Assembly: GCA_027482245.1 (NCBI GenBank)
Contig: JAIXWG010000045.1
Coordinates: forward strand, 62,001-126,000
Length of the DNA stretch: 64,000 nt
Origin: Acetobacteraceae bacterium
Lineage (GTDB): Bacteria; Pseudomonadota; Alphaproteobacteria; Acetobacterales; Acetobacteraceae
Direction: 5' to 3'
This document shows positions 5,431 through 18,284 of the stretch, in pieces. Below the pieces are notes generated by a model. The model did not search any database. It saw only the letters and a list, made by a program, of their open reading frames with translations, and was not told where the DNA came from. Position 1 is the stretch's first letter. Every line of letters begins with the position of its first letter. A program made the position numbers and the translations under genes.

Positions 5431-8400
5431 ATGGAACGCTTCAACCTCTCCGCCTGGGGCGTGCGCAACGGCGCGCTGACCCTCTTCGCCATCCTGCTGC
5501 TCGCGCTTGCGGGCGCCGGCGCCTATATGCGCCTCGGCCGGGCGGAGGACCCGTCCTTCACCCTCAAGCTGATGATCGTCAGCGCCTCCTGGCCCGGTGC
5601 CACGGCGGAGGAGATGCAGGCGCAGGTGGCCGACCGGATTGAAAGCCGGCTGCAGGACCTGCCCCATCTCGACCGCGTGGAGACCTTCACGCGCCCCGGC
5701 TCCTCCGTCACCACCGTGATCCTGAAGGACACGACCCCGCCGCGGGAGGTCGCGGGCCTCTGGTACCAGGTGCGGAAGAAGGTCGGCGACATCGCCAACA
5801 CGCTGCCCGCCGGCGTGCGCGGCCCCTTCTTCAACGACGAATACTCCGACGTCTATTCCGCCGTCCTGGCGCTGACCGGCGCCGACAATGCGGAGCTGGT
5901 GCGTCAGGCCGAGCAGATCCGCCTGCGGCTGCTGCGCGTGCCGGGTGTCGAGAAGGTCGCGATCCAGGGCGAGATCGACCAGCGGATCCATGTCGAGGCC
6001 AGCCATGCGCGCCTCGCCACGCTGGGCATCCAGCCCTCCGCCATCCTCGATGCGCTGGCGCGGCAGAACCCCGTGGCGCCGGCGGGGGTGGTGGAGACGG
6101 GCAGCCTTCGCGTCCATCTCCGCGTCGGCGGCGGGCTGGATGGGCTGGAGGCGATCCGCGCCGTGCCCGTCAGCGCCGGCGACAACCGCACGGTCCGGCT
6201 CGGTGACATCGCGACGGTGACGCGCGGCCTGGCGGACCCGCCCTCCTCCGCCGTCTTCCATGATGGCGCGCCCGCGGTGCTGATCGCGGTGGCGAAGCAG
6301 CGCGGCTTCAACGTGCTGGCGCTGGGCGACAGCCTGCGCGCGCAACTTGCTGCCATCCGGCAGGACATGGCGGCGGGTCTCGACCTGCAGCTGATCTCCA
6401 ACCAGCCGCAGATCGTGCAGGAAAGCGTGGCGGAGTTCCTGACGAAGTTCGTCGTCGCGCTCGGCGTCGTGCTGCTGGTGTCCTTCCTCTCGCTCGGCTT
6501 CCGCGCGGGCATCATCGTGGCGCTGTCGGTACCGCTGACGCTGGCCGCCGTCTTCATCCTGATGGCGTATTGGGGGACGGAGCTGGAGCGCATCTCGCTC
6601 GGCGCGCTGATCCTCGCCCTCGGCCTGCTGGTGGATGACGCCATCATCGCGATCGAGGCGATGGTCGTGAAGCTGGAGGAAGGCTGGGACCGCGCCCGCG
6701 CGGCCGCCTTCGCCTGGGGCAGCACGGCGGGGCCGATGCTGTCCGGCACGCTCGTCACCATGGCGGGCTTCATACCCGTGGGCTTCGCCGCCTCCACCTC
6801 CGGCGAATATGCCGGCGGCATCTTCTGGGTGGTCGGCGCCGCGCTGCTGGCCAGCTGGCTGGTTGCGGTGTGGTTCACCCCCTGGCTCGGCGTGAAGCTG
6901 CTGCCCACGCCGAAACACCATGTCGCGCATGACCACCAGTACGAAGGCCGCTTCTACACGCTGCTGCGCCGCCTGGTCGGCTGGTGCGTGGACCACCGCT
7001 TCGTCGTCATGCTGGCGACCGTCGCCGTGCTCGGCGCGGGCTTCGTCGGCATGGGGATGACGAAGAAGCAGTTCTTCCCGACCTCCGCGCGGCTCGAGCT
7101 GCTGGTGGACGTCAACCTCCGCCAGGGCGCGGGCTATGAGGCGACGCGCCAGGCCGTGATGCGCGTCGCCGCGCAGGTCGCCGACGATCCCGATGCCGTG
7201 ATGCACACCGAATATGTCGGCGCCGGCGCGCCGCGCTTCTTCCTGGCGCTGAACCCCGACCTGCCCAACGAGGCCTTCGGCAAGCTGGTCATCCAGGCGC
7301 GCGACGTCCCCGCCCGCGAAAGGCTGCGCGACAAGCTGATCGCCTATGTCGACAGCGGCGCGGTGCCGGAAGCGCGGGTGCGCGTCTCCCGCCTCGATTT
7401 CGGCCCGCCCGTCGGCTTCCCCGTGCAGTTCCGCGTCATGGGCGGCACGCCGGTCCAGCTGCGGGAACAGGCGGAGCGCGTGATGGAGACGCTGCGCCAG
7501 GTGCCCGGCACGCGGGACGTCCAGCTCGCCTGGGGCGAACGCGCCCCCTCGCTCCGCCTGGTGCTGGACGAGGATCGCGTGGTGCAGCTCGGCCTCTCCC
7601 CCCAGGCGGTCGCGCAATCCATGCAGACCCTGCTCTCCGGCGTCACCGCGACGCAGCTGCGCGAGGGCGCGCGCCTCGTGGACGTGGTGCTGCGCGCGCC
7701 GGCGGCGGAGCGCCTGTCGCTCGACCATCTCGGCGACCTGACGCTGGTGACGGCCGCCGGCCCCGTGCCGCTGTCCCAGGTGGCGCGGCTGGAGCCGGTG
7801 ATGGAGGAGCCGATCCTCTGGCGCCGCAACCGGGAGGGCTTTCTCACGGTGCGCGCCGACATCGCGCCGGGGCTTCAGGCGCCGGACGTGACGGCCGCGG
7901 CACTGCCCTCGATGCAGGCGCTGTCCGCGACGCTGCCCGTCGGCATGCGGATCGAGGCCGGTGGCGCGGCGGAGGAATCCTCCAAGGCCAATGCCAGCCT
8001 TTTCGCGCTCTTCCCCTTCATGGTCGGCGCCATGCTGCTGATCCTGATGGTGCAGCTGCGCCATTTCGGCCGCGTGGCGCTGGTGGTGGCGACCGCGCCG
8101 CTCGGCATCCCCGGCGCGGCCGCGGCGCTGATCCTGATGGACCAGCCCTTCGGCTTCGTGGCGCTGCTCGGCGTCATCGCCCTCGCCGGGATGGTGATGC
8201 GCAACACGCTGATCCTGGTGGACCAGGTGCAGCAGGACGTCGCGGCGGGCATGGACCTCCGCCAGGCCATCATCGAGAGCAGCGTGCGGCGCGCGCGGCC
8301 CGTGGTGCTGACGGCACTCGCCGCCGTGCTGGCCTTCGTGCCGCTGACGCTTTCCGTCTTCTGGGGGCCGATGGCGGTGGCGATGATCGGCGGGCTGACG

Positions 8401-10410: not shown

Positions 10411-11139
10411 CTATCGGCTCAGCCGTATCGCCAGCGCCGGCGAGAGGCCGATGGTCTCCACCGGCGCATGAGCGGTGCCGGCCGCGATGGGCGCCGTGCC
10501 CATCGCCGCGAAGGCTGCGCGGATGCCCGTCTCGACCGAGCACAGCACCGGCACGGGCACCAGCGGCGCCAGCCGCGCGGCCAGCCCTGCGAGCCCCGCG
10601 CCCCCCAGCACCACCGCCTCCGCCCCATCCAGCGTCACGCAGTCCCGGCAGGTTTCGGCCAATGAAGCGACGGCCGAATCGGGATCGCGCGCGATGTCGC
10701 CACCGGTCGGCAGGATGCTGCGGACACCGGAGAGGCGATCGCCATAGCCGCGGCGTTGATGGAATTCCTCCAGCATCGGCTTCCAGGCGGCGCCGCCGCT
10801 GACGACGCCGAAGCGCCGCGCGATGCGGCAGGCTTCCTGCGCGGTGGCATCCGCCAGCCCCAGAACCGGCACGGTCGCCAGCTCACGCAGCGCATCGAGC
10901 GCGGGATCGCCGTAGCAGGCGATCAGCACGGCATCGGCATCCCGGCCATGCTCCGCGAAGGCGTCGAGGGTCGCGTGCTCCGCGATGGCAGCCGCCGCGC
11001 GGCTCGCGATGTAGCGGGCGCCGAAGCGGCCGGTGGCGCCGGTGATGGTCACGCCGGGCGGCGCCATCCCCCGCGCGATGGCGACGAGGCGATCCGTGAT
11101 GGCCTGGGTCGTATTGGCGTTGATCAGCAGCAGCTTCAT
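10411..11139 (-). CDS. Asp/Glu/hydantoin racemase-family protein
   Basis: A 242-residue member of the Asp/Glu racemase superfamily, hydantoin/allantoin-racemase branch. It opens LLLINANTTQAITDRLVAIA. The two catalytic cysteines are present: one in IACYGDPALDAL (about residue 74) and one in VPVLCSVETGIRAAF (about 200). It is the last gene of the catabolic operon, 34 bp after a PuuE-like gene. Allantoin racemase (HpxA) and PuuE allantoinase are a known pair, so a ureide racemase is a good guess. A decarboxylase-type activity, also known in this superfamily, is an alternative. Confidence 0.75.
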   Translation of the reverse strand: MKLLLINANTTQAITDRLVAIARGMAPPGVTITGATGRFGARYIASRAAAAIAEHATLDAFAEHGRDADAVLIACYGDPALDALRELATVPVLGLADATAQEACRIARRFGVVSGGAAWKPMLEEFHQRRGYGDRLSGVRSILPTGGDIARDPDSAVASLAETCRDCVTLDGAEAVVLGGAGLAGLAARLAPLVPVPVLCSVETGIRAAFAAMGTAPIAAGTAHAPVETIGLSPALAIRLSR

Positions 11140-11173
11140 GGGGGCATTCCATCCTCCATCGCGCCGCGAAAAT

Positions 11174-12043
11174 CTAGGTCGGGTCGCCGCTGGCGAGGTA
11201 CCAGTCCATGATCTCCCGCCCCTGCATGAAGCAGACGCCCGGCATGGCTACCAAATCGTCCAGCATCGCCTCCAGCGCGCCGATGCGGTGCGGCACGCCG
11301 GTGATGTAGGGGTGGATGGCGAAGGACATCACCTTCGGCCCGGGCTCTGCCAGCAGCCGCGCCGCCGCCAGCCGCGCGCGACGGGGCAGTTCCTGCTCGT
11401 CATGGTGCTGGATCATGGCGATGGGGATGTCGTTCAGTTCGACCGAATAGGGCATGGTCAGCACCTCCCCGGCCGTCGTCCGGAGCCGCGCGGGCAGGTC
11501 GTCCACGACGAAATCGGCGATGTAGCGGATGCCGGCCTCCGCCAGCAGGTCGGGTGTCTCCAGCGTCTCCGTCAGCCCCGGGCCGAGCCAGCCGACCGGT
11601 GGCGCGCCCGTGAAGCGCGTGATGGCCTCGACGGTCCGCGCGATCATCGCGCGCTGGTCGGGCTCCCTGTGCGTCGGCACCTGCACGAAGCCGTGCCCCA
11701 TGAATTCCCAGCCGGCATCGTGGGCAGCCTGCGCAACCCGGGGATATTCGTGGCAGACATTGCCGTTGATCGAGAGCGTCGGCCGGATGCCGCGCTTCGC
11801 GAAGGCGTCGAGGAAGCGCCAGAAACCAACGCGCATCCCGTATTCATGCCAGGCCCAGTTGGCGACGTCCGGCAGCAGGGCCGCGCCGGTCGGCGGGCTT
11901 AGCACCTGGCGCGGCATGGGGTTGTCGATCAGCCAGTGCTCGACATTGACGACCGGCCAGATGGCGAGTTCCGCGCCGCCCGGCAGCGCGGTCTTCGGCC
12001 GGTCCTGGGGTGCGGCGTAGCGGAGGCGTTGTTCGGGTCGCAT
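11174..12043 (-). CDS. Polysaccharide-deacetylase-fold hydrolase, PuuE (allantoinase)-like
   Basis: A 289-residue CE4/NodB-fold protein. Residues 100-130 read RPTLSINGNVCHEYP then WEFMGHGFVQ, and residues ~180-205 carry DFVVDDLPARL and LTMPYSVELND, which resemble the DDLPY and PYTLDxND segments of PuuE-type metal-independent allantoinases. These act on C-N bonds of cyclic or linear ureides rather than on sugars. It lies 2 bp downstream of the ring-opening amidohydrolase, in the position where triazine pathways have a biuret or carboxybiuret hydrolase. Function on the product of that enzyme is inference. Confidence 0.75.
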   Translation of the reverse strand: MRPEQRLRYAAPQDRPKTALPGGAELAIWPVVNVEHWLIDNPMPRQVLSPPTGAALLPDVANWAWHEYGMRVGFWRFLDAFAKRGIRPTLSINGNVCHEYPRVAQAAHDAGWEFMGHGFVQVPTHREPDQRAMIARTVEAITRFTGAPPVGWLGPGLTETLETPDLLAEAGIRYIADFVVDDLPARLRTTAGEVLTMPYSVELNDIPIAMIQHHDEQELPRRARLAAARLLAEPGPKVMSFAIHPYITGVPHRIGALEAMLDDLVAMPGVCFMQGREIMDWYLASGDPT

Positions 12044-12045
12044 GC

Positions 12046-13146
12046 TCAGGATTCCACGATCACGGCCACGGGCCCGCCGCCATCCGGGCCCTGGTGTTCG
12101 GCGCCGCCGCTGATGAAGAGGTCGGTGCGCCCCGTCGCCGCCGCCGCCACGCCGCCGACCAGCGCGCGGGCATGGCGCGTGGCGTTGATGTCGCTGTCGT
12201 CGTTCATGATGTGGCGGTTGCCCCGGATGCGCCCGCTGGCCGAGGGCTCCGCCTTGGCGAGCAGCGCCGCGAGCCGCCCGCGCTGCGTGTCCGTCAGTTG
12301 CCCCGGCGCCGCCAGCCCGGCGGCAGCCAGCGCGCGCTGGATGGCGGGGAAATCGATGCCGTCCTGCATCACGTCATGCGCGATCCGCAGCCCGCCCGCC
12401 CAGGACCCGCTGTTGCCGAGCACGACGATCTCGTTCCGCGTCAGCTCCACCCCCGCCGAGGCGCTGGCCACGCCGGACCACAGGGACAGGTCCTCCCCGA
12501 TCACGCCATTGGACAACGCATCGGCCGGCACCTCACCCAGCGCCAGCGCGACGCCGAGTGCCGAGGCCCCGCGCGACAGGCCCATGGAGCGGTAGGTATC
12601 ATGCGTCGCGACGGTGGCGCCACGCGCCTCGGCCTCCGCGATGCGTTCGCTGGTCAACAGGGGGCACTTCACCTGGACGTAGTGGACGTCGGCGACCGAG
12701 GAAATGCCGGCATCCGCCATGGCGGCGCGGACGGCGTCGGCCGTCGCCTCCACCTGCGCCATCCGGCCCAGCTCCTCCGGCCGGAATTCCGGCGTGAAAC
12801 CCGTGCCGATGGCCAGCGCGCCGGTCGGCGCCACATCCGATTCTGTCACGGCGAACAGGATGAAGTGGGGCGCGAGGCCGCCCTCCGTCCCGCCCGACAT
12901 CACCATCGCCACGCGCTCCGCCACGACGGCCGGCGTGGTGCCGAGATGCGCCGCCAGCATCGTCGCCAGCGCCGACACGGCATAGGCACGGGTGAAATCG
13001 TTGACGCAGCCATTGCCCTCGGTCTTGCCGAGGATGGCGACAATGCTGGCGGGGTCGAGCGTGCCGGCGCTGAACAGCGCCTCGATCCCCGCCATGTCGG
13101 CGGGGTGGCGCATCGGAACCCGATGCACCGAAGCGATGCGCGTCAT
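12046..13146 (-). CDS. atzD: Ring-opening amidohydrolase (cyanuric acid hydrolase/barbiturase family)
   Basis: A 366-residue protein of the AtzD/TrzD/barbiturase family, which hydrolyses the ring of cyanuric acid or barbiturate. The three-fold repeated Lys/Ser centre is visible: GKTEGNGCVNDFTR (Lys41), VMSGGTEGG (Ser84), VQVKCPLL (about 155-162), SASAGVEL, LLAKAEPS and the C-terminal SGGAEHQGPDGGG. Length is normal for the family. I start at ATG 13146, which overlaps the ABC ATPase stop (ATGA); the longer frame reads through that gene. The neighbouring allophanate hydrolase favours cyanuric acid; barbiturate cannot be excluded. Confidence 0.88.
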   Translation of the reverse strand: MTRIASVHRVPMRHPADMAGIEALFSAGTLDPASIVAILGKTEGNGCVNDFTRAYAVSALATMLAAHLGTTPAVVAERVAMVMSGGTEGGLAPHFILFAVTESDVAPTGALAIGTGFTPEFRPEELGRMAQVEATADAVRAAMADAGISSVADVHYVQVKCPLLTSERIAEAEARGATVATHDTYRSMGLSRGASALGVALALGEVPADALSNGVIGEDLSLWSGVASASAGVELTRNEIVVLGNSGSWAGGLRIAHDVMQDGIDFPAIQRALAAAGLAAPGQLTDTQRGRLAALLAKAEPSASGRIRGNRHIMNDDSDINATRHARALVGGVAAAATGRTDLFISGGAEHQGPDGGGPVAVIVES

Positions 13147-13916
13147 GCCGCTTTCTTTGCGTGGTGGCTGTGCAGCCGGGCGCCCAATTCGCGGCGCACC
13201 TCGTTGAACTCTGGCGAGGAGACGTCGCGCGGCCGCGGCAGCTCGATCCGATGCTCGCTCGCGATCCGCCCCGGCCCCGGCTCCATCACGACGACCCGAT
13301 CCGCGAGGAAGATCGCCTCCTCGATCGAATGGGTCACGAACAGCACCGTCAGCCCCGTGCGCTGCCACAGATCCAGCAGCTCGTCCTGCAGCCGCTCCCG
13401 CGTCATCGCATCCAGCGCGCCGAAGGGCTCGTCCATCAGCACCACCTCGGCGTCATTCGCCAGGACGCGGGCGATGGCGACGCGCTGCTTCATGCCGCCG
13501 GAGAGCTGGTGGGGATGCGCATCCGCGAAGCGCGTCAGGCCGACCAGGTTCACGAAACGCTCGACCGTCTCCGCAACCTCGCTCTTCGGCCGCCCGCGCG
13601 ACTTCGGCCCGAAGCCGATGTTTTCGCGAACTGTCAGCCACGGGAAGAGACCGTAGTCCTGGAAGACCATGCCGCGATCGGGCGCCGGCCCGGCGATGGG
13701 CTTGTCCCACATCAGCGCATCGCCGGCGGTCGGCTGCTCGAACCCCGCGACGATGCGCAGCAGCGTCGACTTCCCACAGCCGGAGGCGCCGATCAGGCAG
13801 ACGAACTCGCCCTTCTTCACGGTCAGGTTGGCGTCGCGCAGCGCCTCGATCCGCGTGTCGCCCAGCGTGTAGGTCTTGCCGACATGCTTGATGTCGAGGA
13901 TGGGGATCTCAGCCAC
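13143..13916 (-). CDS. ABC transporter ATPase, nitrate/sulfonate/taurine type
   Basis: A 257-residue ATP-binding subunit with Walker A GASGCGKST (about residues 43-51), Q-loop VFQDYGLFPW, signature LSGGMKQR, Walker B VVLMDEPFGALD and switch VTHSIEEA. This sequence style is the SsuB/TauB/NrtD group. It overlaps the permease gene by 8 bp and the ring-opening hydrolase by 4 bp. It should power uptake of the compound that the operon degrades. Confidence 0.93.
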   Translation of the reverse strand: MAEIPILDIKHVGKTYTLGDTRIEALRDANLTVKKGEFVCLIGASGCGKSTLLRIVAGFEQPTAGDALMWDKPIAGPAPDRGMVFQDYGLFPWLTVRENIGFGPKSRGRPKSEVAETVERFVNLVGLTRFADAHPHQLSGGMKQRVAIARVLANDAEVVLMDEPFGALDAMTRERLQDELLDLWQRTGLTVLFVTHSIEEAIFLADRVVVMEPGPGRIASEHRIELPRPRDVSSPEFNEVRRELGARLHSHHAKKAA

Positions 13917-14757
13917 GGTGCATGGGGCTCCAGCGCAGGGCGCGGTTCATCAGCATGACGACGACGCGGTCGCTGACGAAGCCGGCGATGCCGATGACGA
14001 TCATGCCGCAGATGACAAGCTCTGTGCGGCTCAGCGTGCGGCCATCCATGATGACGGCCCCCAGGCCCTGCGGCACGCCCGTCATCTCGCCAACGACGAT
14101 CACGAACCAGGCGAGGCCGAGGCCGAGCCGCAGCCCCGTGAAGATGGAGGGGAGTGCCGCGGGCAGCACGACGCGGAAGAACTGCGCATTGCCGCGGCAG
14201 CCCAGCATCGAGGCGGCCTCGAACAGCCGCGGCTCGACATTCTTCACGCCGAAGACGGTGTTGAGCAGGATCGGGTAGAAGGCGCCGAGGAAGACCAGGA
14301 AGAAGGCGGATTTCGGCCCGAGCCCGAACAGGATCATCGACAGCGGCAGCCAGGCCGTGACCGGGATCGGCCGCATCAGCTGGAGAAAGGGGTCGAGCAG
14401 TTGCCGCACCAGCGCGATGCGCCCGATCAGCAGCCCCAATGGCACCGCGACAGCGGCCGCCAGCAGGAAGCCGCCATAGACGCGGGACGCGCTGGCCAGC
14501 AGGTGCAGGTGCAGCGTGGCGGAGAAGGCATCGTCCCAGATGCCGCCCACCGCAAAATCGACCATATACTCGGCGACGTCGGCGGGGGACGGGATCAGCC
14601 GCGTCATCCCCGCCTTCACCGCCAGATGCCAGCCCAGCAGCAGCAGCAGCGGCACCACCAGCGACAGCGCGATGGGGCCGAGGCGGCGACCCAGGCGCTG
14701 CGCCGCGCTGCTGGCGGGTGGCGCAACCGTCGCCACCGGGATCGTCGCCTCGGACAT
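13909..14757 (-). CDS. ABC transporter permease, nitrate/sulfonate/taurine type
   Basis: A 282-residue inner-membrane permease of the SsuC/TauC group. A first hydrophobic helix is at residues ~28-48, with five more across 90-265. The EAA loop is ASMLGCRGNAQFFRVVLPAALPSI (split, about 168-190), followed by the family's GLRLGLGLAWFVIVVGEM. It lies 13 bp after the binding-protein gene and overlaps the ATPase gene. It is part of the importer for the cyclic-ureide operon. Confidence 0.92.
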   Translation of the reverse strand: MSEATIPVATVAPPASSAAQRLGRRLGPIALSLVVPLLLLLGWHLAVKAGMTRLIPSPADVAEYMVDFAVGGIWDDAFSATLHLHLLASASRVYGGFLLAAAVAVPLGLLIGRIALVRQLLDPFLQLMRPIPVTAWLPLSMILFGLGPKSAFFLVFLGAFYPILLNTVFGVKNVEPRLFEAASMLGCRGNAQFFRVVLPAALPSIFTGLRLGLGLAWFVIVVGEMTGVPQGLGAVIMDGRTLSRTELVICGMIVIGIAGFVSDRVVVMLMNRALRWSPMHRG

Positions 14758-14770
14758 CGCCCGAAACCCC

Positions 14771-15721
14771 TTACGACGTCGCGATTTCGTTGGAGAAGCG
14801 CGGGTTCAGGAAGGTGTTGAAGTTCGGCAGCTGGCGGATCTGCCGCATCTCCAGCATCTGCTGCGCATAGGCGCGCGCCTGGCCGAGCACCGTGTCGTCC
14901 AGCTTCCAGATGTATTCGACATTCTCCGCCGCCAGCGCCTGCTCCACCGCCGCGCGCGGCGCGCCGAGGATGCGCACCGTCGCGTCCGCGACCTCCCGCG
15001 GGTTGGCCATCATGTACTCGCTGGCGCGGCGATGGATGCCGAGCATGGTGCGGACCAGCGCGGGATCCTGCGCGATCTGCTGTTCGCTGGTCGCGAAGAT
15101 CATGTTCAGCCCGCCCATGGCGGTGCCGTAGGGATATTCGACCAGCTGCCCGACGCCCGACGAGATCGAAAGGCCCGGCCCCGGCTCCGCGCCCACATAG
15201 GCGTCGATGTCGCCGCGCGACAGCATGGCGTGCATCTCGCCGAAGGGCACGCGCACGCTGGTGATGTCCCGCACCGTCATGCCGGTCTGGCGCAGGCGCT
15301 CCAGGATGAAGACCTCCTGCGTCGAGCCTGGCCAGATGCCGACTCGCTTGCCGCGAAGGTCGGCGATGGTGCGGATCGGCGTGCCGGCCTTGGCAATGAC
15401 GCCCATGCCCTTGTTGCAGAAGGCGCCGACGACGACGACGGGCTCACCCGCCGCGCCGCCCAGCAGCGCCGCCGCGATGCCGAAGCCGCCGAAATTCACG
15501 GAGTTCGTCACGACCGCGTTCTTGCCATCGGTCGGGCTGTCGAAGGTCGTGATCTCGATCTTCAAATTCGCCGGCGCGAAGCGCTCATAGAAATGCGGCG
15601 TCATGGAGTGGATGAGGCGGAGCGACCCCATCTTCACGGTGCGCTGCGCCTGCGCATTCGCGATGTGCGGCGCAGCGACCAGCGCGGTGGCCCCGGCGAG
15701 GATATGGCGGCGACGGATCAT
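14771..15721 (-). CDS. ABC transporter substrate-binding protein, NMT1/SsuA-like
   Basis: A 316-residue periplasmic protein with the twin-arginine-like signal MIRRRHILAGATALVAAP and a mature part starting about QAQRTVKMGSL. The FDSPTDGKNAVVTNSVNFG and GAFCNKGMGVIAK segments are typical of SsuA/TauA/ThiY-type receptors. I choose ATG 15721 over an in-frame start at 15775, because GGGAGA precedes 15721 at the right distance and the signal peptide then begins properly. It follows the allophanate hydrolase C-terminal gene by 17 bp. The ligand is predicted to be the operon's cyclic substrate. Confidence 0.88.
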   Translation of the reverse strand: MIRRRHILAGATALVAAPHIANAQAQRTVKMGSLRLIHSMTPHFYERFAPANLKIEITTFDSPTDGKNAVVTNSVNFGGFGIAAALLGGAAGEPVVVVGAFCNKGMGVIAKAGTPIRTIADLRGKRVGIWPGSTQEVFILERLRQTGMTVRDITSVRVPFGEMHAMLSRGDIDAYVGAEPGPGLSISSGVGQLVEYPYGTAMGGLNMIFATSEQQIAQDPALVRTMLGIHRRASEYMMANPREVADATVRILGAPRAAVEQALAAENVEYIWKLDDTVLGQARAYAQQMLEMRQIRQLPNFNTFLNPRFSNEIATS

Positions 15722-15738
15722 TCGTTGGTTCTCCCTGC

Positions 15739-16128
15739 TTAGGTTGTGGCGAGGCTGGCGATGAAGGCGCGCCATCCCCCGAATTCGGAAATCTCGGTGG
15801 CGCCGGTCAGCCCCTCGGGCTCCACCAGGAAGCCCTTGGGCGTCGTGCCATCGGCCAGGCGCAGCGTGCCGATGCAGAGCGGCGCGGGCACGCCGGCGAC
15901 GAAGCGGCCGAAGCCGTCCTCCGGCAGCGCCCAGACCTCGGTCTGGATGGCGTGGCCCTCCGCCACGCGCAGCAGGCCCGGCCGCTTCGGCGGTCCGCCG
16001 GCCAGCGCGAAAAGCCGGTAGCAGGGCTGCGTCAGCACGGCGCGGCGCAGCGCCGCACCCTCCCGCAGCAATTCCGGGTTCAGCACCATGCCGGAGAGAT
16101 GCGCGCCGACGACGGCGATCTCGATCAT
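15739..16128 (-). CDS. Allophanate hydrolase C-terminal domain, encoded as a separate gene
   Basis: A 129-residue protein matching the C-terminal domain of AtzF/allophanate hydrolase. It begins [19 protein letters not shown], has VEVW-like [19 protein letters not shown] and [14 protein letters not shown] in the middle, and ends [12 protein letters not shown]. In known enzymes this domain is fused to the amidase and converts or positions the N-carboxy intermediate. Here it has its own ATG, overlapping the amidase stop by ATGA. The two products probably assemble. I discard an upstream in-frame start at 16173, inside the amidase gene. Confidence 0.85.
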
Positions 16129-17453
16129 GCCGCGAAGCCCTCCATCAGCGTGGCGCCCGTCGCCGCCAGGCACGCGTCGCTCGCCCGCGGGCCGATCAGC
16201 GTGACGCCGAAGGGCAGCCCGTCCGGCCGAAGCGGCGCCGGAACGGCGATTGCCGCCAAGTCCAGCAGGTTCACGAAATTGGTGTAGGTGCCGAGCCGGG
16301 CGTTGGGCCCGATCGGGTCGGCCTCCAGCTCCGCCAGCGTCGGGAAGTTGGGCGCGGTCGGCACCAGCAGCGCCTCGATCCCGTCCCAGGCCGGGCGGGT
16401 CGCGAGCCGCAGTTCGGCCAGGCGGTGCAGGCCGCGGAAGGCATCGGTGGCGCTGAAGCGCGCGGCGCCGGCGATGATCCGGCGCGTGACGGGGTGCATG
16501 GCCTCCGCGGGCACCAGCGCGCCGAAGGCGGCATCGCGCTCAGCCACGAAGGCGCCCTCATAGAGCAGGCGCGCCGTCTCCAGGAACGGCGTCAGGTCGC
16601 GCTCCACCAGCGTGACGCCGGCGGGCAGCCGCGCCAGCGCCGCCTCCCAGGCCGCGCGCTGCTCGGGACCATCGAGGTGCAGGTCCTGCGCGCGGGGAAT
16701 GCCGAGGCGCGTGAGCGCCGCGCCCGGCGTGCCGAGTTCGATCGGCCGCGACCAGGGATCGAGGTCATCCGCGCCGGCCATCACGCCGTAGCAGGCCCAG
16801 GCATCCGCGACGCTGCCGGCGAAGACGGAGATGCAGTCGAGGCTCGGGCAGGCCGGCACGACGCCGCGGGACGGGATGGCCCCCACGCTCGGCTTCAGCC
16901 CGACCAGCCCGTTCAGCGCCGCCGGCACGCGGCCTGACCCGGCGGTATCCGTCCCCAGCGACAGCAGCGCCAACCCCTGCGCCACCGCGACGGCGGAGCC
17001 GCTGGATGACCCGCCCGGCACGCGGTCCGGCGCGCAGGCATTGCGCGGGATGGGGTGCGGGGTGCGGACGCCGACCAGCCCCGTCGCGAACTGGTCGAGG
17101 TTGGTCTTGCCCGTGATGATCGCGCCCGCCGCCAGCAGCCGCGCCACCGCCGGCGCCGATTCGGCCGGGGTGTAGGCATGGGCCGGGCAGGCCGCCGTGG
17201 TCGGCATCCCCGCCACGTCGATATTGTCCTTCACCGCGACGGGCACGCCCCAGAGGGGGAAGCGCGTGGGATCGAAGGGCGGCAGCGCCGCGATCGCCGA
17301 CGCCATCGCGGGCTCCGAAGGCCGGTGCAGGTAGATGCCGGGATCGCCGATCGCGTCGTGCCGCGCCGCCAGCGCCGCCATCAGCGCGGCAGGCGTCAGC
17401 CCGCCGGCATAGGCGGCGTGCAGGTCGGCGATGCTTCGGGGCAGCTTGGTCAT
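16125..17453 (-). CDS. atzF: Allophanate hydrolase, amidase subunit (split AtzF)
   Basis: A 442-residue amidase-signature enzyme that hydrolyses allophanate to two ammonia and two CO2. The catalytic triad is Lys75 ([11 protein letters not shown]), cis-Ser149 (GGSSSGSAV) and Ser173 (TDTAGSGR). The [18 protein letters not shown] and LDCISVF segments and the [15 protein letters not shown] stretch near residue 395 are those of AtzF/DUR1,2-type allophanate hydrolases. Known AtzF is about 605 residues with a C-terminal domain; here that domain is the next gene. It is the first gene of the operon, 138 bp downstream of a GntR regulator gene. Confidence 0.9.
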
Positions 17454-17549
17454 CGGGCGAGGGTGCTCATCGCGCCCGGCTCAGCAAGTGGCGTGCCGAA
17501 GCCGGCGGTGACGGCGGATCAACGACTTGGCTCGCCGGACGCCGCCCCG

Positions 17550-17558
17550 TGTATGCAA
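17550..17558 (-). promoter_or_regulatory. Possible GntR (FCD) operator half-palindrome
   Basis: TTGCATACA (minus strand) lies between the GntR gene and the amidase gene and resembles the TNGTATACNA-type sites bound by FCD-subfamily GntR regulators. It is short and imperfect, so this is only a candidate for operon control. Confidence 0.25.
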
Positions 17559-17591
17559 GAGAACCCGAAACCGGGCATTTGTGCCCTGAAA

Positions 17592-18284
17592 TCAGGCAGC
17601 GTCCGGCTGCGCCCGCGCCCCCGCCATGGCGATCCAGGTCCGCTCCGTCAGCCCGATATGGGCCCGTAGCGCCGCGGCCGCGCCGGCCGCATCGCCCCGC
17701 TGGATCGCGGTGACGATCGCCACATGTTCCTCATGCGACCGCCGCATCCGGTCCGGCGCCTCCAGCTGCGCCGCGCGGAAGGGCGCCAGGCGCCGCCGCG
17801 TCGCCGTCGCGATCTCCGCGAGGTAGCGGTTGTGCGACCCGGCATAGAGCAGGTGGTGGAAGGCGACATTGGCGGCGCGGTAGCCCGCCACGTCGCCATC
17901 CCGCACCATGGCGGCCATGCGGGCGATCTGCTGTTCCAGCCCGCGGCGTTCCTGCGGCGTCATCGCCATGGCGCAATGCGCCGCGGCCATCGCCTCCAGC
18001 TCCGCCATCACCACGAACATCTCCGCCAGCTGCGCGGCATCCGGCACGGCCACGACGCAGCCGCGCCGCGGCACCGATTGCACCAGGCCGGTCGGCGCCA
18101 GCTGCCGCAGCGCCTCCCGCACCGGGGTGCGGCTGACCGCGAACTGCGCGGCGAGCGACGCCTCGTCCAGCGCCGCGCCCGGCCTCAGCCGGCCCGCGAC
18201 GATGTCATCCGCCAGCTGCGCGGCAATGGCCTCCGACCGCGTCGGGCGCGGCTTCGGGGCGTTTCGGGGCGGGGTGGCGGGCAT
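17592..18284 (-). CDS. GntR-family regulator (FadR/FCD subfamily)
   Basis: A 230-residue regulator. An N-terminal winged helix-turn-helix spans residues ~18-82 (AIAAQLADDIVAGRLRPGA, LAAQFAVSRTPVREALRQL). The C-terminal all-helical FCD effector domain includes the metal-site pattern AYRAANVAFHHLLYAGSHN and HEEHVAIVTAIQRGD (the last His ligands). It is encoded immediately upstream of, and on the same strand as, the allophanate hydrolase operon, so it is the likely ligand-responsive repressor of that operon and perhaps of itself. Confidence 0.9.
   Translation of the reverse strand: MPATPPRNAPKPRPTRSEAIAAQLADDIVAGRLRPGAALDEASLAAQFAVSRTPVREALRQLAPTGLVQSVPRRGCVVAVPDAAQLAEMFVVMAELEAMAAAHCAMAMTPQERRGLEQQIARMAAMVRDGDVAGYRAANVAFHHLLYAGSHNRYLAEIATATRRRLAPFRAAQLEAPDRMRRSHEEHVAIVTAIQRGDAAGAAAALRAHIGLTERTWIAMAGARAQPDAA

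Follow-up and report, generated by a model that had tools for sequence, protein, structure and literature searches.

The locus described here is a nine-gene operon on the minus strand at positions 10411-18284 of a 64,000-nucleotide window, i.e. the whole stretch of DNA analyzed, from Acetobacteraceae bacterium (assembly GCA_027482245.1, contig JAIXWG010000045.1, positions 62,001 to 126,000). The window is part of a contig designated C32, and the genome comprises 6.39 Mb. The first gene encodes a GntR/FCD regulator (17592-18284; PF00392, 75 bits; PF07729, 99 bits), whose position is unchanged in most Acetobacteraceae relatives carrying the operon core described below. It is followed by the amidase part of the allophanate hydrolase AtzF (16125-17453; TIGR02713, 532 bits, cut-off 511) and by the C-terminal AH_C domain of AtzF as a gene of its own (15739-16128; PF21986, 149 bits). 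Next are the genes of an ABC importer with an NMT1-type substrate-binding protein (SBP) (14771-15721; PF09084, 85 bits), a permease (13909-14757; PF00528, 78 bits), and an ATPase (13143-13916; PF00005, 116 bits). The remaining genes encode an AtzD-type cyanuric acid hydrolase (12046-13146; NF052395, 556 bits, cut-off 360), a PuuE-like hydrolase of the NodB fold that is a candidate biuret or carboxybiuret amidohydrolase (11174-12043; PF01522, 31 bits), and a racemase-like accessory protein in which one catalytic Cys is replaced by Gly (10411-11139; PF01177, 167 bits). All nine genes of the first-pass annotation, which had been made from the sequence of the window, were recovered in place on this strand with family scores in agreement. 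The operon proteins are 90-98% identical to their counterparts in Falsiroseomonas algicola, with a value of 97% for the PuuE-like protein.

From GntR to the racemase-like gene, the eight junctions measure +138, -4, +17, +13, -8, -4, +2, and +34 bp. A 4-bp overlap occurs at 2 out of 8 junctions, hence the earlier description of mostly 4-bp overlaps was overstated. Given the short gaps, the eight genes downstream of the regulator probably form a single transcript. Genes in the neighborhoods were called by a codon-usage script, with approximate start sites, and were named by their best BLASTP match to a small reference set, so that an unnamed gene does not equal an absent function. A Pfam scan found neither an AtzE or AtzG gene nor an isochorismatase gene among the nine genes of the operon. 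No Rfam match over the gathering score indicated a riboswitch, of the guanidine or any other type, between positions 8000 and 21000 of the window, and in a search for riboswitches upstream in seven related loci Rfam yielded a tRNA only.

Judged from their sequences, AtzF and AtzD appear to be ordinary members of their families. The AtzF amidase passes the TIGR02713 cut-off despite its C-terminal domain being located on the next gene, and together with the AH_C domain on this adjoining gene it was assigned to AtzF. The nearest solved structures are 4gyr and 4cp8, with which it has the amidase signature, an LYxGxxVAER stretch, and the C-terminal domain in common; it differs from them in being split into two genes that overlap by 4 bp. 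According to the alignment, the LYxGxxVAER stretch is common to 4gyr, 4cp8, and 4iss, and its Tyr and Arg, which have a role in AtzF, are kept in the operon protein. A second, weaker AH_C-type gene of the genome (L300, C66:93185-93550) is 39% identical to that of the operon and has no AtzF amidase named beside it; a similar gene is present in genome G262 (L301).

The operon AtzD scored 392 bits against the best cyanuric acid hydrolase structure (4nq3) versus 281 bits against barbiturase (5hwe). Mapped by alignment, all three Ser-Lys dyads are kept (K41/S84, K160/S230, and K298/S346), and R192 occupies the place of Arg188 of the Azorhizobium enzyme and is not the Gln of barbiturase. The dyad residues and the Arg/Gln distinction between cyanuric acid hydrolase and barbiturase were taken from PMC4051656. 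The proposed cyanurate-type enzyme was thus borne out by equivalog score, dyads, Arg residue, and structure scores, and the protein is assigned by sequence to the cyanuric acid hydrolase type. A barbiturase role was considered and ruled out by the residue at the Arg188 place and the scores.

Additional AtzD-family genes were found in the genome. A second AtzD paralogue (L004:4341-5405, C32:126340-127404; 376 bits, cut-off 360) is located just beyond the end of the window, flanked on both sides by gene sets that include NMT1-type binding proteins and near a gene for a molybdopterin-binding protein of the XDH type. In G262 and G287, genes similar to this second AtzD were found near such an NMT1 set beside the PuuE operon. 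A third paralogue (L005:7904-8953, on C18) reached 237 of the 360 bits and carries Phe at the place of the nucleophile Ser226. Its neighbors, as read by eye, resemble phosphoribosyltransferase-, M20-, and dihydroorotate-dehydrogenase-type proteins.

Conservation of the operon was analyzed in an even draw of 299 Acetobacteraceae genomes (the family sample) and in a search of named genomes using the PuuE alignment, in which at least 581 relatives were found and the best 80 of them kept; some of these 80 loci belong to family-sample genomes (e.g. L197 = G168 and L200 = G237). In the family sample, a PuuE-like match at E 1e-20 was found in 220 genomes and an AtzD match at E 1e-30 in 57. AtzD adjoins PuuE in four of them (G000, G168, G237, and G292), i.e. 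it lies inside 4 out of 15 PuuE-form operons. The order GntR-AtzF-AH_C-SBP-permease-ATPase-PuuE without AtzD was found in G231, G195, G262, G095, and G104, and the operon of G287 is cut by a contig end. Among the 80 named loci, the importer is located beside PuuE in 40 and not beside it in 38; the remaining 2 have no called PuuE gene. Within eight genes, these 40 core loci, which include Phreatobacter, Methylobacterium, Rhabdaerophilum, Enterovirga, and Roseococcus, contain AtzF in 30 cases, AtzD in 4, and an alpha/beta hydrolase in 17; the racemase-like gene was found in 3 and an AtzH-like gene in 1.

These comparisons define a core of PuuE, AtzF, and importer, with AtzD as an apparently optional insert between the ATPase and the PuuE-like gene. 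The first-pass annotation had described a cyclic-ureide/cyanurate operon and suggested a search for conserved AtzD-PuuE adjacency. Such adjacency exists in the four family genomes but most cores occur without AtzD, so that the label of a cyanurate operon does not hold for the core. Its choice of the PuuE-like gene as the best candidate of the operon for producing allophanate gained support from the link with AtzF and the importer, which is kept in other genomes. Exactly one AH_C domain was present in each of the 14 core genomes in which it was counted. No BiuH was seen in the place of PuuE within the operon.

Several related arrangements were observed. The operon of G028 contains a DJ-1/PfpI-family gene between ATPase and AtzD (L102:7764-9559) and no PuuE; a PuuE-like gene (73%) of this genome is located on another contig. 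The alpha/beta hydrolase (L208:10881-11708 and relatives) belongs to Abhydrolase_3, with an HSL-like match under the cut-off. It is located behind PuuE or before AtzF in many loci, with Methylobacterium and Roseococcus among those that have it near PuuE, and also accompanies AtzF where PuuE is absent. On the Polaromonas plasmid pE10SP1 (L128), AtzD occurs together with a polysaccharide deacetylase-family gene 33% identical to the PuuE-like protein of the operon, and an Asp/Glu racemase-family gene, ureidoglycolate lyase, and dihydropyrimidinase lie within 17 kb.

The distribution of AtzD was compared with gene trees. The set of in-operon AtzD proteins comprised nine rows, including two identical pairs, one near pair, and the G028 row without PuuE. 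On the AtzD tree, the in-operon proteins required 2 changes (shuffled mean 7.7; 0 out of 500 shuffles as low). On the PuuE tree, the character "AtzD beside PuuE" required 5 changes, 2 of them forced by well-supported branches (shuffled mean 5.8; 109 out of 500 as low as 5). Thus, AtzD appears to have entered or left operons on at least two occasions, and the AtzD proteins themselves have apparently one or two origins. The clustering of the in-operon AtzD proteins, while their host operons do not cluster, is what would be expected if AtzD had joined a pathway that already functioned.

A second line of evidence came from the importer. SBP relatives at E 1e-60 or better were found in 45 out of 299 family genomes. 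The neighborhoods of all 45 were read, and a labeled gene within 6 genes of the SBP was counted as partner. PuuE was the partner in 15 loci and AtzH in 17; no locus had both and 13 had neither, of which at least those of G161, G206, G270, G280, and G002 lie at, or close to, the end of a contig. The reference AtzH scored 197 bits with PF11533, and the 17 AtzH proteins are 62-72% identical to it. Their genes are immediately adjacent to AtzF and share its strand. AtzD, counted at 55% identity or more, was present in 17 out of 17 AtzH-form, 7 out of 15 PuuE-form, and 1 out of 13 other genomes, and AtzE over the cut-off in 17 out of 17, 11 out of 15, and 11 out of 13, respectively. The presence of AtzD and AtzE in all 17 AtzH-form genomes ties the importer-AtzF operon to the cyanurate/biuret route. 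In two AtzH-form genomes (G106 and G204) AtzH accompanies AtzF and no AtzH was found within 1.5 kb of AtzE. According to PMC6219798, AtzH reportedly converts the product of AtzE to allophanate. This exchange of partners suggests, at the level of gene content, that PuuE reaches allophanate without AtzH.

Four PuuE-form genomes (G095, G203, G267, and G278; 97-100% complete) keep the importer and PuuE. In these genomes, neither an AtzD match at E 1e-30, nor AtzE over the cut-off, nor a match to Rhizobium leguminosarum BiuH above 34% identity, nor a TIGR02712 carboxylase over the cut-off was found. Each contains one AH_C domain. Gene calling gave no AtzF in G203 and G267, whose operons have frames that look broken by eye, and an AH_C domain is located near each. 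For these four genomes PuuE would be the simplest source of the AtzF substrate, and we infer that biuret is the obvious one-step precursor of this substrate.

The PuuE-like protein is not a member of the PuuE allantoinase family by score, since TIGR03212 reached 96 bits at a cut-off of 425. An AlphaFold2 model built on an alignment of 42 relatives (mean pLDDT 92.1) has the PuuE-type NodB fold, with 1z7a, 3cl6, and 3s6o as the best Foldseek matches among solved structures (TM 0.81-0.84). With these structures the protein shares the EYGxRxGxWR and GW motifs in addition to the fold, whereas identity in the structural alignment is only 24-30% and the gene context is different. In CE4 polysaccharide deacetylases the two His residues are spaced as His-x3-His. 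H117 and H125, which are conserved in the PuuE-like family, were found by inspection to lie eight residues apart, unlike this canonical motif, and alignment inspection revealed N33-x-E35 near the place of the first motif, so that the CE4 metal site does not appear to be present. The motifs of this site of two tandem Asp and two His, as well as the closeness of the 1z7a/3cl6/3s6o group to metal-independent PuuE allantoinase, are discussed in PMC10967932. Distant homologues of the PuuE-like protein (44-58%) were found in other clusters of Bradyrhizobium, Tardiphaga, Variovorax, and Streptomyces (L250:9334-12476, L230, L130, and L132), which hold isochorismatase-family and fumarylacetoacetate hydrolase-family genes.

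The racemase-like gene was classified as an accessory outside the core. It is present in 3 out of the 15 PuuE-form family operons (G000, G231, and G195), and the 3 named core loci containing it are all from Falsiroseomonas; it is missing from three further members of this genus with a PuuE-form operon (G095, G262, and G287). Hydantoin and allantoin racemases use two catalytic Cys residues in their mechanism. In six sequences, five of them different, the first Cys is kept within ACYGDP, ACFGDP, or GCFGDP and the second is replaced by Gly in all six. The operon protein has ACYGDP and, at the place of LGCGGM in 3qvj, VLGGAGL, and thus lacks the two-Cys signature. Two-base racemase activity is unlikely on this sequence evidence. 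The suggestion that the protein acts on a chiral or carboxylated intermediate fits poorly with both its rarity and the missing Cys.

That the PuuE-like protein is an ordinary allantoinase in an operon for allantoin might be deduced from its distant similarity to PuuE and the adjoining hydantoin-racemase-like gene. The score of 96 bits against the 425 required and the loss of one catalytic Cys in the racemase-like protein speak against such a function. Allantoin breakdown is not known to yield allophanate other than via urea carboxylase. Urea carboxylase (TIGR02712) was considered as an allophanate source and rejected, as it was over the cut-off in 0 out of 24 family genomes, which contain partial matches of about 440 residues under the cut-off; presumably this model also takes in guanidine carboxylase. 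On these three grounds the allantoin operon was rejected, its probability being very small.

We propose, with a probability of roughly 0.45, that the locus is a biuret-type nitrogen-scavenging operon with an added AtzD, in which the PuuE-like protein would make allophanate from biuret or carboxybiuret. The ABC importer would take up biuret, and also cyanurate where AtzD is present. AtzD would convert cyanurate to 1-carboxybiuret, for which PMC6219798 describes spontaneous decarboxylation to biuret. From biuret (or carboxybiuret), the PuuE-like enzyme would then produce allophanate and ammonia, and the split AtzF would convert allophanate to ammonia and CO2. AtzD would thus extend the core pathway to cyanurate. 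It is the reaction of the PuuE-like protein and the substrate of the importer that we infer here. A broader and somewhat more tentative form of the proposal would make the PuuE-like protein a third, non-homologous class of (carboxy)biuret amidohydrolase with a NodB fold, probably metal-independent, which together with the NMT1-type importer and AtzF forms a biuret operon of Acetobacteraceae and Hyphomicrobiales that became a cyanurate operon where atzD moved in.

A number of observations weigh against this proposal. The pattern of PuuE and AtzH on an importer tree of SBP and ATPase (42 rows: 20 PuuE-form, 17 AtzH-form, and 5 neither; without G203 and G267) requires at least 2 changes, forced by well-supported branches; it represents about two events, not 32 independent observations. 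Outside the family sample the mutual exclusion is not perfect, as an AtzH-like gene (48%) occurs in L193, four genes from PuuE and separated from it by genes of the opposite strand. The Enterovirga locus L220 has a gene of the BiuH/TrtA family (51% identical to BiuH) three genes from PuuE, which may reflect a shared pathway or redundancy. No AtzF label was found within 8 genes in 10 out of the 40 named core loci, of which one is truncated by the end of its contig and two seem to have disrupted frames. An alpha/beta hydrolase occupies the place of AtzF in five Methylobacterium loci (L208, L215, L218, L219, and L221), and the single AtzF of each of these genomes is located elsewhere, in two of them beside a protein of 1180-1195 aa with a carboxylase-like start. 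The proposal leaves the alpha/beta hydrolase of the 17 core loci unexplained. Furthermore, a comparison of 23 core with 19 differently placed PuuE-like rows revealed no core-specific invariant residue, and the substrate of PuuE is cyclic whereas biuret is acyclic.

The same holds for known middle-step enzymes elsewhere in the genome. The absence of a middle hydrolase noted at first pass is valid for the operon, which has no AtzE, AtzG, or BiuH, but not for the genome. An atzG-atzE-atzH set is located outside the window at C32:51712-53671, separated from the operon by about 19 kb (AtzE 614 bits, over the cut-off; adjoining AtzG 49 bits and AtzH 197 bits), and a second AtzG-AtzE pair on C35. Of the 8 isochorismatase-family matches in the genome, the nearest BiuH relative (L171:7076-7759, on C23) scored 272 bits at a cut-off of 370 and was not assigned to BiuH. 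This TrtA-like gene is 52% identical to R. leguminosarum BiuH and 60% to RL_RS29180, which was equated with TrtA, as described in PMC7948467, on the basis of its location and an identity of 47% to BiuH. With AtzGEH and the TrtA-like gene in the genome, a known middle-step route may operate in trans. The TrtA-like gene is followed by a gene of 526 aa without Pfam or NCBIfam match (L171:7076-9336), and this pair was also found beside AtzF in G151 and G194 (L298 and L299) and beside AtzG-AtzE in G195 (L176).

AtzEG encoded in trans, with AtzH, might thus be responsible for the middle step, as it is in Pseudomonas sp. ADP, and the PuuE-like protein would then feed an unrelated ureide or imide into AtzF. 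This finds support in the four genomes whose PuuE operon includes AtzD, each of which has AtzG, AtzE, and AtzH together with AtzE over the cut-off, and in the AtzE of all 17 genomes with AtzH-form operons. Moreover, AtzD is located beside AtzE and AtzH in G017 (L104) and, in G005 (L103), beside an AtzE-like amidase (46% identity), which is a different gene from the one passing the AtzE cut-off in that genome. We regard it as unlikely, if by no means negligible, considering the four PuuE-form genomes that retain importer and PuuE without AtzE over the cut-off.

Alternatively, in line with a second option named at first pass, the PuuE-like protein may open another imported cyclic ureide or imide on a path to allophanate, with AtzD merely exploiting AtzF. 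The relationship of the nearest solved structures to PuuE allantoinase, the annotated fumarylacetoacetate hydrolase-family genes and, by sequence reading, further genes of this kind and isochorismatase-family genes near distant homologues, and the alpha/beta hydrolase near PuuE in the 17 core loci are consistent with such a substrate. However, one or two lineages acquired AtzD at an identical position of the operon, and all 17 AtzH-form operons are found in AtzD genomes. No natural cyclic ureide is known to give allophanate in one or two hydrolyses, which also counts against it. This possibility is considered rather improbable.

The atzDGEHF operon of Pseudomonas sp. ADP (PMC6219798) likewise begins with AtzD and ends with allophanate hydrolase, and shares AtzH and AtzF with the AtzH-form operons of the family. 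In contrast, the operon studied here lacks atzG, atzE, and atzH and has a NodB-fold protein and an NMT1-type importer. The BiuH/AtzD cluster on pRL10 of Rhizobium leguminosarum 3841 also combines AtzD, an ABC importer, and a small hydrolase, but its hydrolases are isochorismatase-family cysteine enzymes and its SBP is annotated as BMP family, according to PMC5806882 and PMC7948467. For the middle step, PMC6219798, PMC5806882, and PMC7948467 describe two unrelated solutions, BiuH and AtzEG. Among the matches listed in a search of open-licence literature, none placed a polysaccharide deacetylase in one pathway with biuret, allophanate hydrolase, or cyanuric acid hydrolase. Gene conservation identifies the PuuE-like protein as a real and conserved predicted partner of AtzF that was not found described in the literature consulted.

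Biuret and cyanurate originate from urea fertilizer, pool chlorine stabilizer, and triazine herbicides. If the proposed role is correct, the PuuE-like protein would represent a third solution for the middle step, built on a fold better known for trimming polysaccharides, and "polysaccharide deacetylase" annotations next to AtzF would need correcting. The operon would also be a clear case of stepwise pathway assembly, with the core first and AtzD later, and would explain the possible use of biuret and cyanurate by alphaproteobacteria such as Methylobacterium and the roseomonads.

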